The notes below the pieces were generated by a model. The model was not told the origin of the DNA, did no database searches, and saw only the letters and a program-made list of their open reading frames with translations. Source: Tetraselmis striata (taxonomy: Eukaryota; Chlorophyta; Chlorodendrophyceae; Chlorodendrales; Chlorodendraceae). Taken from it: DNA of 64,000 nt. Of the stretch, positions 6,578 through 51,752 are shown one piece after another (the stretch's first letter is position 1; the number at the start of each line of letters is the position of its first letter). The translations under genes and the position numbers were made by a program. The stretch lies in the NCBI GenBank assembly GCA_006384855.1, contig VCJN01003306.1:1-64000 (forward strand). Reading direction: 5' to 3'.

Positions 6578-9500
6578 TCACAGTGTCCCACGCACAACGT
6601 CAGGGTTCAACACAACAGAAGCGGAAGCGCGACTCAGCACGTGGCCTGACGCGTGCATCGAACCGCCGCCCATCTCAGTCGGTGCAGACGCGAAGCCCTT
6701 CAGGGCTGAGTACAACCCCTCGTGTGCGTTGGTGTCGATAGCTCGCTCGATTGCCTTCTTAGCCTCGCCTAGCAAGGTACCCCATAGCCGCTTGAGTGTG
6801 AGATCCTTAGCGAGCTGCGTGTTGCTCTCCTCGTCAGTGCCGGAGGCCGTCTGTGGACAATCGGTAGGACTGGGGTAGAGTAGACGCTGGCAGGTGAAAT
6901 GCACTTGGGGGCTAGCAGGGTTGTCGAAGGTGTGCAGCCGTACCGACGAGGGACTGAGTGGTTGTGCTTGCTTGAACCAGAGGTCGTTCACCAAGCCCCT
7001 GTGGAAGGTGGCCGCTGTGCTGCAGCACAGCACTGCCCAGTAGTGCCGGCAAGGTACTCCACAGCGCACGCCGGACCCGCAAGTGCAAGTGTGCGCCTGG
7101 TAAGCATCCCGGCCCTGAAGCTTGTCGTGTAGCATAACGAAGTGGGGGTTGGTGGGCTTGTCCGTCACAGTGTGCAAGATGCCAACCTTGAAGCATCTCA
7201 GGTCAGCATGGTGCTGCGCAGGCACAGCTCCTCGAAGGTCTGCTGCGGTCTGGAACCGAGGGTGGTCAGCGAGGTCTGGGTCAATGGACGGAAATGGCCG
7301 GAGGTCGGCCGTAGTAGTAGTAGACGGATCATCCACCAAGGTGAGGGGCACCTCTGTAGCCATGTAGTTTGCACCCGCCATCATTTGTTTCTGCATCATC
7401 GCCATCCCGTAGCCTGTGAGTGCCTCCTTCATCTCCTCCGTGATTGCTGGGTAGCAACTAGCCGCGTATGTTCTCGCGCTCGTTGCATGCACCTGCACAC
7501 CGCCATTGTTCATCAAATGAAAACAAAATAGGCTACACGAGTATCGTGTCAATCAAGCACTTCTGGTATACAGCATATGTGCGGGGTATACCTCATCCTT
7601 GGCTGAAGCAACAACTAACTTCGCTTCTTCTCGCGCCTCCTTCAGTAGCACTTGATCAAACAACTTGGAGAGTGGACTCTGGCCGGACAAATGTGCCTTG
7701 AAGTGGCGGTTCAGACCCTCGCCACGTTGTGTTGACACAGCGCCGGTGGAAAACCTGTTGTGCCTAAAGCCTGCCCAGTACCTGACATTGGGAGTAAGGT
7801 GGTTGTCAAGGTACGGCGCTGCCTTAGGCCAACGTTGTTTGAGGGCATTGTACTCCTCCCAAAAAACTGTCTCCGACATGTATTGCTGGCACTGCTTGAA
7901 TTCTGAAGAGAAGTCATGGTAACTGCCGGCCAGCGCGGACATGAGATGCTTCCGAAGATTCTGGTGGAGATGCCATAAGCACCACAAGTGCAAAGCCAGC
8001 GGGAAGATAGATGCCACGGCCGCACAGACTCCTGGATCCGCATCTGTTAGGAGTAGCTGTGGAGGAATTCCAACTGCTTCAAGGTAACACTGTAGCTGCC
8101 ACTCATAGTCTGTTGTGGCCTCCTTTGAGGAAAGAGCAATAGCAAGCAACACTGTTTGACCATGCCTGCACACACACAAGATCACAAAAGGGGGTGTAAC
8201 TTGCCAAATTGCGGCGCAGCGCGAAAAGCGGGGATGGATGGAGCTGAGCGGCGACGGCAGAGCTGCTGGGTGTGGGCGGCGGGAGGGCTGGCGCGACACA
8301 AGGGTAGCGCCATATACCACCGCGCATTGGGGTTGGAGAGTGGGGGGGGGGGGTAAAGGTGACACATGACATCGGGCAGCGCCAACATGAAACGTGGCTG
8401 GAGGAAGGGTGCACACCGGTTAGGAGCTGAGAACAACCCGCATGGTAGCTTGAAGCGGTTGGTCTTGTAGGTGTTGTCATGGATGATAACTTGATAAAGG
8501 TCATAGGCCATGTCTCGTTGCCTCGGGCTCATCCAGAAGAGATGGGTGAGTCGATTCGTCACGGGGTCGACTTTGAACCTGCATGAATGAGCATGTTGGA
8601 TCAGTTTGCGATCCAACTGCATCATCGTATTTGTGTGATCATTTGTTGGCGCGATTACCTCACAAACCATCTGCCATCCTCTTGCTGCAAACGCAGGAGC
8701 TCCTGCAGCAGCAGACTAGCATCCATACTCCCCCCGCCTGTTGGAGTTCTTATGTTGACAACGTCTTTCACAGTGATAAGCGGGGCGTTGGGAAACTTTT
8801 TCCTGAAGCATGTAAGGACGTCCTCCGGGGCAATTCCTGCGTTAGCTAGAGAAGTGATGAATTCCTGCATGTCTACGGTAAGGTTGGCCACCCGGTTTTG
8901 GTAGGACTGGACCAACTCTGAAAGTGGTCGGTGGTTGTGCTTCATGTTTGTTGTAGCCAGCTTCCACAAGCCATCAACCTGCCGCCGGACGTTCAATCTG
9001 GACAGCACAAACATATAAGTCGCATGTTGTAAAAAACACTATTTGCTAAGCATTTGGTATGATTTGAAGCCTGACTGGACACGCACAAATAGGGGAGGAG
9101 GGAAGGGGGGGGGGGGGCTTTCCCACCTGAATGGGCACATATCTTCCCCGGGAAGAGCATACTGGTTGCCCTTAGCGCGTCGCTGGGATGGGTTGAGACA
9201 GTTGTCTCCCGCTTTTCCGGATGCCTTCCTCCCTTTCCGCCTGCACACGAAGGTGGCCTTCCCTTGCTTGAGGTCGGCACTTTTTTGAACGAGGTTGAAC
9301 CCGCAGGCTTTGGCCCACTCTTGGCACTCTCCTCTGCAGATTTCGAGCGTGGTGGCGCGGGAAAGGTCTGGCGCATCGGGGCAACTAGGCCCATACCACT
9401 CGTTCGCAATGTCATTCGTTTCAGTTTGGGGATATTGATCGGTCCTTGGGGGGCACTCGTCTCGACGCTGGGGAGCCGAGTCGTCAACGGGTGCACAGAT

Positions 9501-46652: not shown

Positions 46653-47200
46653 ACTACTACTACGCGGGTCACGCTCGTAACGAAAGCGTCGCCCTCTAAG
46701 ATGGTGTAGCTCGCTGAACAAGCATCACACCACCGGTTCCGGTCAGGGCACTGCGGAGGAGCGACCATCAGCAAGCAGCCGACCAGGAAAGGCGGGTCTT
46801 GAGGTACGGAGTTTGGGTACGGGGAGGGTTGCCCGGTAGCGGCCTAGTCCGTGCGGCGGTTGATGCCGTAAACCGCGAGCTCATGGGCAGTCATGTGGCA
46901 GTGCCGGCTCCAGCAGACGACGCCCTTGTGCCTCTTGCTCGGGCTGCACAGAGAAATGTCGCAGTCCGGTCACTTATAGGACGTCCAACCCACATTGTCG
47001 TCGTCCATACGTCACATAGTGGAGCGGGCTTACTTGGTGGCGTTGTCGTTGCCGGGGCGTTTGCCGAGGTGCATGATGCTGTGAGGTGGCTCGTTGGTGA
47101 TGTCGGGCAATGCGCGCTGGGTCCTGCGAGTCGGCTCCACCTCCCCTGTCAGCCCGTTGTAGATCAAGGCCTTGCACATCAGGTCGGCGAAGTTGAAAAC
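46653..47200. other. Spacer, no gene seen
   Basis: Open frames on both strands are weak. A minus frame reading FNADL-like start and TNEPPHSIMHLGKRPGNDN (47170-47030) looks non-random, but I cannot place it. Confidence 0.35.
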
Positions 47201-47912
47201 GGCTGAATCTTTGAGTGGGTGGTGCCTCGGGAGGTGGTGCTTCAGGACGGCTGCTGCAACGTGGCGGCCACCGGAGGGCATCTGGAGGTGTTCATGTGGG
47301 CGCGGCCCCCGGATCGCCCGGATGACTGGGACCGTGGCATCATGCTCGGGGCTGTGGAAATGGTAACATGGAGGTGCTGCAGTGGCGGAGGGAGCATGGC
47401 TGCCTCTGGGCGGACATGACGTGCTTCTTTGCCTCCCCATCAAAGGGCACCTCGAGGCGCTGAAGTGGGCCAGAGGGCAGGGCTGCCCCTGGGGCGCGCA
47501 GGTGTGCATTTTGATGGCTTAGAAGCATGTGCCCATCTGGGAGTGGGTCCAACAGCAGCCATAGTGGCCCGCTTTCGTGGAGGAGTATTAGCACTGGCAT
47601 ATATCTTGCAAGCAGATGGTAAGCATCATGTCATCAACCACTCTGGTGAATAAGAATGAAGGCCACAGCAGCAACGGCAGCTACGTGTTGCCGTTCCGCA
47701 AGTGCCCACATTGCAAGCGAGCTCATGCGCAAAATGTACTACTTCTTGCCAAGACATTATTACTAGCACGTGCATGTCCATATAGACATGTTGCAAACCA
47801 AGCACTTGGGGCACGCGACATGGCTGTCTCGGGCGGTCCTTTGGTATCATACATACGTAATGAAAATATGCCTGTCTGTATATCAACATCTATAGAATGC
47901 CACTGTCTGTAA
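47200..47912 (+). pseudogene. Inverted copy of the ankyrin-gene remnant
   Basis: Plus-strand frames read GGHLEVFMWARPPD, MEVLQWRREHGCLW and GHLEALKWARGQGCPW (ankyrin helices), in different frames. From 47616 a single frame reads CPHCKRAHAQNVLLLAKTLL and SGGPLVSYIRNENMP, similar at protein level to the minus frame at 29880-29590. Order and orientation mirror locus A: ankyrin then, convergent, the VPS53 tail. Confidence 0.65.
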
Positions 47913-48505: not shown

Positions 48506-50178
48506 TCCGCTGCAGCTTTTGTGCGACCGTGCTGGCACAGTACCGCACTGCCGCCGGGTCGTCGGATTGGGAGAATGAGATTGGTGGACTGCGGCGACGC
48601 TTCACGACTCCCTGCCAGTCGATCGCATAATTCTTGCTATGAGAACCTGTTGGTGCGGCAGTCCCTTATAACTGGTTATCAAGTATACCAAAGCGAGGGC
48701 GAGGACGACATCGCTTTCTCTTAGGTACAGGGACTGGGTCTTCAAAGGACTGCATGCTGCGGGCATAGCCGACCCTATGCGGGTTCATGTAGTCGGGCCG
48801 TAAGGTATGTGACCTGCTGGTTCGGTCAGGAACAAATTTGTATTAATAATTAGTACTAGAACTAGACGTAACACTTTCAATTTCAATTTCAATGTCAATT
48901 CGGACCATAGCCCTCTACCACAACATTTGCCCTCTGGAAATCTGTCGCAGCTAGCGCCAACAACATCCACACGCTAGGCGGTGCCGCGGCAGAGTGACCA
49001 ACCCACAGTCTGTCATTACTACCAGTCATGCTCGGCTCATCGGCTGTTCTCAGCGCTGAGTATGGCGGCTAGCGCACCGTCCAAGGCACCCCTCCTACCG
49101 CTGGTAGTCAGGGCGGTTGCCACCCGCTGCCTGCGCATGCTCCGACACACTCTTCCGCACCTTGGCGCAGTCGTTGACAGGAAGGGCTTCCCCGACCATA
49201 TCTTTGAAACGGCTGCTGGCATGCTTGACTTCGGGTAGCGGTCGACTTAGGCTCGAACTAGGGAAGCGGCGCCTCCCCGACGGTGTGCATGGTCTTGTCG
49301 CGCACCATACTTGGCAAGCGGCACCGGCGCGCCAGCTCGTTGGGCTTAGCGCCATACAGCAGGTCTGCAAATTCACCCATACATTTTGATCAGTCAGATG
49401 CCGCAACATTCATCAAAAAACCGGGCTCGCGGGTCCGAAAAACTTTATGAATTGTTCCGCAGTCGGTATATCCGTGTGCGCTGGCAGTATTCATGGTGTA
49501 CTACATGTAGGCATATTTCGACGGAAACAGATATATTTCAAGATGAATGTAATGGTTCCTCTCCTCGCGAGCAGGGCGGGGAGATCAAAAACTATAATGA
49601 TAAACGCAAACCCATTCGGTATCAGTATCGTGGCTACAGTATCAGTATCGCGGTTACAGTTACAGTTCACATCTTCTGACCGCACAGCTAATTACCATCT
49701 CGCATCGAATTCCTCTCACAGTGCTCTCCTGTGAGGCCACTCTCGCCTGCTCTACCCCTTCGATAACCCCAAACCACTATAATACTGTCATCGTGTCACC
49801 GTTACCCTCTCCGTGGCGGTGGTATACTGCTGATGGGAGTTTCTGCGCATTGAAGCGCAACATGTCAGCGGCGTGCAAGGTCCGCCTTGATCATGCCGCG
49901 CGGCCCGGCCGCGATGATTGTGGTGCGCCACGAATGCCGAGTCCACATGTAGTTGCTTGCCCCAATACATGCACATGCCATGTCGTGCCGCCATCGGCAG
50001 CGGCATCGCCAAAGCGCTGAACGGGAACCGCGGAAAGGAAGGTAGCGCAGACGTGGACGCGGGGGAGCGGTGCGGGTGGCTGTGCTAATCGGAGCGGGCT
50101 CGTGGCCGGGTGGGCCGAAGGCATGGCATGTGCCGCAGGTGGGAGACAGTACCCCAACACGTGTTTGGGGCGGCTCTG
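48506..50178. other. Spacer, no gene seen
   Basis: Mixed composition with a short TTTCAA run (about 48869-48890). Frames at 49095-49409 overlap on both strands and resemble nothing known. Confidence 0.5.
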
Positions 50179-51752
50179 TCACGTGTCGCCGCGCCGCAGC
50201 CGGGCGGCCACCCAGCCGATGTAGACGACGTGGAAGAGTGCCCAAGAGGCAGCCAACGCGGCGCCGGCGTAGCGGTCCACCGCGCCCGCCGCGGCTGCGT
50301 CCTTCACCAGCGCGGATGCGGCCATCTGCACGGTCAGCAGGAACACGAGGGCGAAGCAGGCGCTGACGTAGAGGTCCAGCTTGGTGAAGTACGGCACTTT
50401 CGGCAGCATGTCCGCAACCACAAACTTGAAGGCCACCGCGGTGAGCAGGATGGTGAGCAGGATGCCGGCGCGGTCTGCAAACTCGGCGGCGGGCAAGCAG
50501 TAGGCAGTGACGGACAGCACAGTGATGAGGAACATGAGTCACAGGACGTTCTGCGAGTAGTAGGCGTGCTTCCGCCGGATGGGAATCTGAAACCCGAGGG
50601 CATCACCAGCACACAAAGGGGCAAAGTCAGCGGCTCTGCCTTGCCCATAGGGACGTTGAATGTAAGCGGGCCTAGGGATGCTACATGCCATTTGGAAATG
50701 TTGCAGGCTGGCTGTGAAGAAGGGAGGGAAGGAGGCGGCTCGGCGTATCGGAGGGTTTGCCTGGTAATGCATGGCGGAGCGGTCCTCCTCCACGTGACTC
50801 TCATCCACCTCCAGCTCTTGCGCAATGCTCCACTCCGGCAACGACACCTGCGCTGCGGATGTATTGGTGAAGGCCCTGGTTCCCGTTCCCCACCGGTGCG
50901 ATGGTAAATGGCAAATAGGGCGGGGGCCAACCGTGGGGGGGGACTCGCCTGACCCTCGATCAGCGTGAAGCCGCTGGCCGCAAAGGTCCGGCTGCGGTCG
51001 TTGCCCGAGTTCATACTGATCTTGACGGCCAGGCGCTGGCGGTCGAACGGGAAATCGTGCAGGTCGAAACTCTGCGACAGCGTGCCCGAGTACTTGTGCG
51101 ACAGCTCCAGCACGCCCGCGTCCACGTCCACCACCGCCAGGCGGCCCGCGTCAACCAGCTCCACGTCCACGCCGTTGATGATGCTAAGGTGCGGCACGCC
51201 CGCCTTGTACAGCGACTCCGTGTCCTCTCCGTAGTCCAGCTTGAAGCCGTTGCGCAGGGCACCGCCGGGGCCCAGGTGCTCTCTGATGCGCGCCACCAGC
51301 GCGGGGTCCGCCCACGCCATGAACACGCGGAAGCTGCAGTGAAAGTGCCCCTCGACGGTGTCAATAGACTTGAGCTCCCAGACCTTCAGCCCGATGGACA
51401 CCACGCGCGACGGGTTCTTCTGCGCCAGCGCCTTCCGGGCTGCCCCCTCTGCTCCATACCTTACAAGGCAGGGCCTGGTCGTCAAGGGGTTGCTGCAGAT
51501 ACGGGGCGGCCGGGGTGGAGGGGGGGGTCCCTGCCAGCATTAACACAGAAGCCTATAACCCGAGTGGCTTCCCTCGCACCTATTGTGCTTGTCGTTGATG
51601 GCCTTGTTCAGCTTGGTATCTTTACAGGCGTGGATCAGGTCCAAGGTGGGGTTGCCGCCCTTCGGCGGCGCCACGCGCACACTGGTCTCCGCGGTATCCG
51701 GGTGGACCGCATGGTGCATGCCGAACGCGGGGGTGCTCACATGCGCGATCAC
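50179..51752 (-). pseudogene. Cys-less pentameric ligand-gated ion channel gene with in-frame TGA
   Basis: Exons in transcript order: about 51752-51580 (5' end incomplete; preceded by an acceptor-like CGCAG), 51459-50949, 50847-50761 and 50586-50179. The extracellular beta domain ends in SFDLHDFPFDRQRLAVKI, the conserved loop of pLGICs without its two cysteines, as in prokaryotic members. Then come LPEWSI, pre-M1 IPIRRKHAYYSQNV, and M1 with MFLITVLSVTAYCL. M2 follows (DRAGILLTILLTAVAF), then LPKVPYFTKLDLYV, M3 and M4, ending RLRRGDT. A TGA (50541-50539) interrupts M1 between QNVL and LMFLI, with no splice site that removes it without removing M1. Otherwise the frame is clean. Nonsense allele, assembly error (TGG or CGA to TGA) or recoding are the options. 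Two donors read GC. Signal-peptide exon not found; a frame starting near 51998 is a weak candidate. Confidence 0.8.

Follow-up and report, generated by a model that had tools for sequence, protein, structure and literature searches.

We examined a 64,000-nucleotide stretch of DNA from the green alga Tetraselmis striata (hereafter the window), which carries a gene that reads as an ion channel on its minus strand; the first-pass annotation of the region had given no strand. Our predicted model has four exons. Exon 1 (51580..51719) is probable: read directly, it opens with an ATG at 51719, encodes MHHAVHPDTAETSVRV...NDKHN and ends at a GT donor (AATAG/GTGCGA), and additional exons upstream of it are possible. 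Exon 2 (50954..51492, predicted boundaries) encodes a ligand-binding domain with an FPFD Pro-loop and without Cys-loop cysteines. Both of its ends are ambiguous, the 5' acceptor lying at 51492 or as much as about 43 nt further on, and the 3' end at either 50954 (GT donor) or 50949 (GC donor). Exon 3 (50761..50852, predicted boundaries, starting at 50847 or 50852) encodes VSLPEWSIAQELEVDESHVEEDRSAMHYQ, and is followed by a last intron (50587..50760) of 174 nt, a stop-free multiple of three with a GC donor and the acceptor TTTCAG. Exon 4 (50179..50586), read directly, encodes the pre-M1 segment and M1-M4 and ends in a TGA at 50181-50179. It opens at 50586 with IPIRRKHAYYSQNVL, after which an in-frame TGA (50541-50539) precedes LMFLITVLSVTAY. 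The first-pass annotation had placed a TGA at 50539-50541 within M1, and we confirm it there, on the minus strand and in frame with both flanks. About 515 nt below the terminal TGA lie two TGTAA motifs (49654..49664, minus strand), a possible polyadenylation signal if TGTAA is, as we assume, the algal poly(A) signal. Their position suggests a 3' UTR of about 0.5 kb. The motif is not significantly enriched in the sequence L002 (7 occurrences against 3.5 expected, a count reached by 13 of 200 shuffles).

Profile and structure matches, together with hydropathy, bear out the pentameric ligand-gated ion channel (pLGIC) landmarks listed in the first-pass annotation, namely the FPFDRQ loop, the pre-M1 segment and four helices. 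The membrane-domain profile (Neur_chan_memb, PF02932) matches the 119 codons between the in-frame TGA and the terminal TGA above its curated cut-off (E 7.7e-10), while the ligand-binding profile (Neur_chan_LBD, PF02931) matches the extracellular exon below its own (E 0.00099; 19 bits where 26 are required). When the exons were joined with an X at the stop, the product matched solved pLGICs, best of all the 5osa chimera (E 2.6e-16) and also GABA-A subunits and the Gloeobacter channel. This match spans the Pro-loop SFDLHDFPFDRQRL in exon 2, which has the form aromatic-Pro-aromatic-Asp, and a hydropathy plot of the product has four peaks. The places of the Cys-loop cysteines, read directly against the GABA-A row, are taken by Gln and Leu, which sets the protein outside the Cys-loop subgroup and agrees with its earlier assignment to a Cys-less class. 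The gene is clearly of pLGIC ancestry, but whether it functions normally is less clear. The frame that runs unbroken from ligand-binding domain through M1-M4 in a pLGIC is interrupted here.

Cys-less pLGICs of Chlorophyta have already been reported, in the grouping used by Jaiteh, Taly and Henin (2016, PMC4795631; so cited in PMC11085791). The present gene resembles these channels, as that paper describes them, in being algal and Cys-less, and its own features include an FPFD Pro-loop, pre-M1 arginines, an LPKxPY M2-M3 loop and four hydrophobic segments. Unlike the chlorophyte channels as that paper groups them, it carries a TGA in M1, a Leu at the M1 proline and a GC donor before M1. The match to GLIC-type prokaryotic and GABA-A-type metazoan pLGICs extends over both ligand-binding and membrane domains, although it is distant (the E value above is the best for the whole query), and the present gene differs from both types in its interrupted frame and from GABA-A in its missing Cys-loop cysteines. 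Using the membrane exon as a query against IMG/VR and GTDB contigs, we obtained 22 and 363 pattern matches, respectively, none of which was confirmed as a relative.

We next considered the surroundings of the TGA. The first AG after it begins 55 nt downstream, beyond LMFLITVLSVTAYCLPAA, and splicing to that AG would cost almost all of M1; we therefore rejected removal of the TGA by splicing, in agreement with the first-pass annotation. In-frame translation of the intron ahead of the TGA yields no hydrophobic helix that could serve as an alternative. An altered genetic code was rejected as well, given that all three standard stops seem to serve as terminators: TGA in the channel gene and its paralogue on contig C427, TAG in the C2846 paralogue, and TAA at six light-harvesting loci.

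The first-pass annotation had described everything apart from the TGA as intact. This holds for most of the landmarks, but not for two features that it missed and that sit close to the TGA: the very next codon, which lacks the M1 proline, and the adjoining intron, which has a GC donor. The codon is CTC (Leu, 50536..50538, minus strand). The corresponding column is Pro in all five paralogous loci aligned (counting C1889 and C1837 as one) and in both PDB-derived rows, whereas the column of the stop itself holds Ala (C2846), Leu (C1889), Val (C1293), Leu (C427) and Leu (C2783). The M1 proline is described as present in all pLGICs (PMC9607081), so that the present gene departs from the class at this position. 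According to the same source, a glycine receptor with this proline changed to alanine (GlyR P230A) works with reduced potency, and ELIC is said to be unchanged by the equivalent substitution (PMC9607081). Directly after the Leu codon comes an ATG (50533..50535, minus strand), 3 nt past the TGA and in the frame of M1-M4, a possible restart codon.

The GC donor was placed by homology: HYQ/IPIRR, with the exon junction at the slash, aligns with DYQLRISRQ of the 5osa chain, which puts the exon end at CAG/GCAAAC (donor dinucleotide at window 50759-50760). GC donors occur naturally. When donors were probed at eight sites in other genes of this genome, seven could be read as GT, several of these placed only by where similarity ends, and the remaining site (L003) showed no exon end. 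Within the channel gene, the exon 1 donor is GT and that of exon 2 can be read either way.

To place the gene among its relatives, we searched the 224 Mb assembly (2903 contigs, with the channel gene on contig C2668). The M1-M4 exon gave seven matches, comprising itself, C2846, C1889, C1837, two on C1293 and C2783, and the PF02931 profile added C427, so that the family has at least six distinct members in this genome. Of these, C1889 and C1837 are possible alleles, sharing 96.6% identity across about 3.2 kb. A stop in M1 is absent from the paralogous segments of C2846, C1889, C1837, C1293, C427 and C2783; the TAA and TGA triplets within the C1889 and C1837 matches lie beyond the last conserved residue and belong to the donors GTAAGT and GTGAGT. 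In C2783 (C2783:26563-29694; 1436-1554 of the reverse complement), the frame changes between M1 and M2 across at most 35 nt, too short for an ordinary intron, and this break is either an indel error or a second frame lesion of the family. A frame change in C2846, confined to 154 nt of its extracellular part, could reflect an intron or a frameshift. PF02932 has four matches in the genome, among which the exon past the stop scores best (38.1 bits versus 34.7, 34.4 and 23.2), both 34-bit matches being shortened by an intron.

Several contig pairs with near-equal matches (among them C1889/C1837, C872/C1507, C553/C2374 and C1057/C2075) suggest that both haplotypes were assembled in places; the pLGIC stretch is without a partner. 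The extracellular exon and the DNA of the gene are single copy in the assembly. A search with the 2 kb upstream of the gene found no partner contig, its four matches being the window itself and three of less than 260 bp at 70-72% identity. Collapse or absence in the assembly might thus conceal an intact allele. A DNA search that included large flanks was dominated by a dispersed repeat of ~444 bp (window 46800-47243), which made up 38 of the 40 matches listed, at 83-90% identity; this number is a lower bound on its copies.

The assembly carries many chlorophyll a/b-binding genes (63 profile matches with exons counted apart), which point to a green alga. One of these genes, used as a query, aligned along most of its sequence with chlorophyll a/b-binding chains in solved structures. 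Twenty-eight matches cover at least 150 of the 162 profile positions and 26 of these are free of internal stops, the other two being one on C2375 and a frame-shifted copy on C617. The C617 copy (C617:116500-118069) lies at a contig end and is either a pseudogene or a contig-end error. A search with the pherophorin profile PF12499 gave no match, and its controls were likewise silent, so that it carries no information on lineage.

The genome also supplies internal controls for selenocysteine (Sec). It holds two tRNA-Sec genes with a TCA anticodon, and its selenoprotein genes include two GPX copies (L021 on C872 and L022 on C1507), with a TGA at what we take to be the catalytic position, and two Rdx-family genes with an in-frame TGA (L017 and L018). 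The alga thus plausibly decodes Sec; a survey of 137 algae counted 42 selenoprotein families (PMC7539508). We scanned for SECIS elements under strict criteria (quartet, helix II, and unpaired AA or CC). Three of the four control loci were positive (L021:2225, L022:2244 and below the L018 gene), L021 and L022 being near-identical copies and L017 giving no strict match. The same scan found no candidate in the 3.5 kb below the TGA (50538-47001), a range that extends well past the suggested 3' UTR. Across both strands of the whole window it found four, none of them on the gene strand within those 3.5 kb. A looser scan of the 1.5 kb below the terminal stop returned one candidate, at -1.7 kcal/mol, against best energies of -20.3, -20.3, -28.0 and -20.9 kcal/mol for the four controls. 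The looser scan is unspecific, with candidates in 47 of 60 segments of 1.5 kb drawn at random from the window, ten of them at -20.3 kcal/mol or lower; we therefore base the conclusion that a SECIS is absent on the strict scan and on the near-absence of candidates in the target. Rfam detected no SECIS at the target and was uninformative, as it also missed the GPX elements and found that of L018 only below threshold.

With these controls in hand, we asked whether translation might pass or resume beyond the TGA. The first-pass annotation had offered a recoded stop as one option, to be examined by a SECIS search below 50179, while regarding Sec in M1 as unexpected. A host with tRNA-Sec and an in-frame TGA are what the channel gene has in common with the GPX genes of the same alga. 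It differs from them in that no SECIS was found below it, that its paralogues have Leu, Val or Ala and never Cys at the stop column (five loci aligned), and that it is not a redox enzyme. Recoding of the UGA as Sec is thus unsupported and, in our view, very unlikely indeed. Somewhat less remote, though improbable, is stop-codon read-through or termination and restart, which would yield a soluble ligand-binding domain together with either a distinct M1-M4 polypeptide or small amounts of the full-length channel. The TGA is followed by a C, and according to the title of a work cited in PMC7440625, the UGA read-through signal of Sindbis virus involves one C after the stop; the in-frame ATG (TGA-CTC-ATG) stands 3 nt beyond the stop, and a stop-to-ATG spacer of 6 nt has been used in C. 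reinhardtii (PMC7440625). Against this, the leaky context shown for that alga is TAG-CAA-TTA (PMC7440625), from which TGA-CTC differs, and no stimulatory structure was found downstream, the 106 nt there folding less stably than shuffles (z +1.54). The codon past the stop is the one without the M1 proline, and the break falls inside M1, where every paralogue read is stop-free. As to restart, three in-frame ATGs were counted in the part upstream of the TGA, and out-of-frame ATGs there are not depleted (1 seen versus 1.2 expected). Bicistronic translation in algae is described as leaky scanning in which upstream ATGs suppress the second frame (PMC11291117), and the missing depletion led us to reject a bicistron of that kind. 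Read-through or restart is thus without positive support, a low level being conceivable. A split receptor, in which one mRNA encodes the soluble ligand-binding domain and also supplies, through read-through or restart, some full-length channel or an M1-M4 pore polypeptide, we consider less probable still; if true, this would mean a pLGIC that an alga naturally makes in two parts, and a new way of making a receptor of this class.

The two remaining origins that the first-pass annotation had proposed, a recent nonsense change and an assembly error, carry nearly all of the weight, and we favour the former. In our reading, the gene is probably a young pseudogene or a null allele within the Cys-less pLGIC family, its inactivation being very recent; we infer both that the TGA is real in the DNA and that function is abolished. 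The main rival is that the TGA, and perhaps the Leu codon with it, is a base-call or assembly error in an ordinary working Cys-less pLGIC, which we consider possible though clearly the less likely of the two. It gains from the presence of most other channel landmarks, and from broken copies elsewhere in the assembly, namely the frame-shifted C617 light-harvesting copy and, on a contig of 32 kb, the C2783 paralogue, either of which could be an error. The C2783 break would fit decay within the family equally well. Weighing against error, internal stops look uncommon in conserved genes, judging from the light-harvesting matches, and the TGA lies inside a 122 kb contig, away from its end. In addition, the stop, the lost proline and the GC donor would not all be explained by one mistake. 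Loss of the M1 proline and a GC donor in the intron just upstream would fit relaxed constraint, and it is the conjunction of these two with the stop that tilts the balance toward decay over a lone base-call error. Apart from these three features the protein looks functional as far as its sequence can tell, which speaks against inactivation.

If the gene was inactivated, its coding appearance suggests that this happened recently. GC3 is 0.92 in exon 2, 0.83 in exon 3 and, in exon 4, 0.93 before the TGA and 0.90 after it; coding character is thus kept on both sides of the TGA, and the exon past it remains the best PF02932 match in the genome. In a neutral simulation of 972 nt, with indel rate and effect assumed, the probability of acquiring no further stop or frameshift was 0.36 at 1% substitutions, 0.12 at 2% and 0.01 at 5%.

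Under inactivation, translation would end at the TGA, about five residues into M1, and splicing as modelled would give a ligand-binding domain alone, with the pore (M1-M4) not made. Such a pore-less product would most likely lack function. Should the GC donor fail, the retained 174-nt intron would remain in frame and stop-free, and the same TGA would still end translation. Junction-dependent decay of an mRNA depends on the position of the stop relative to the last junction; the TGA lies in the last exon, 45 nt past that junction, and such decay need not apply. The predicted truncated product would resemble acetylcholine-binding protein, which is a soluble ligand-binding domain.

In sum, the gene encodes an otherwise unremarkable algal relative of nerve-receptor channels, and its in-frame stop most likely marks a recently disabled copy or an error in the sequence, with recoding the less likely account. 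Algal pLGICs are, in our judgement, little characterised, and here at least six family members occur in one green alga, two of them with frame lesions in the assembly. If real, these lesions would offer a small, datable example of pLGIC loss, of the kind proposed to be frequent in unicellular organisms (PMC4795631). The same genome also offers internal controls for distinguishing Sec codons from plain stops. Elsewhere in the window, a MULE/Mutator-type transposase domain lies on the minus strand at 7556-8419 (PF10551, E 1.1e-13).
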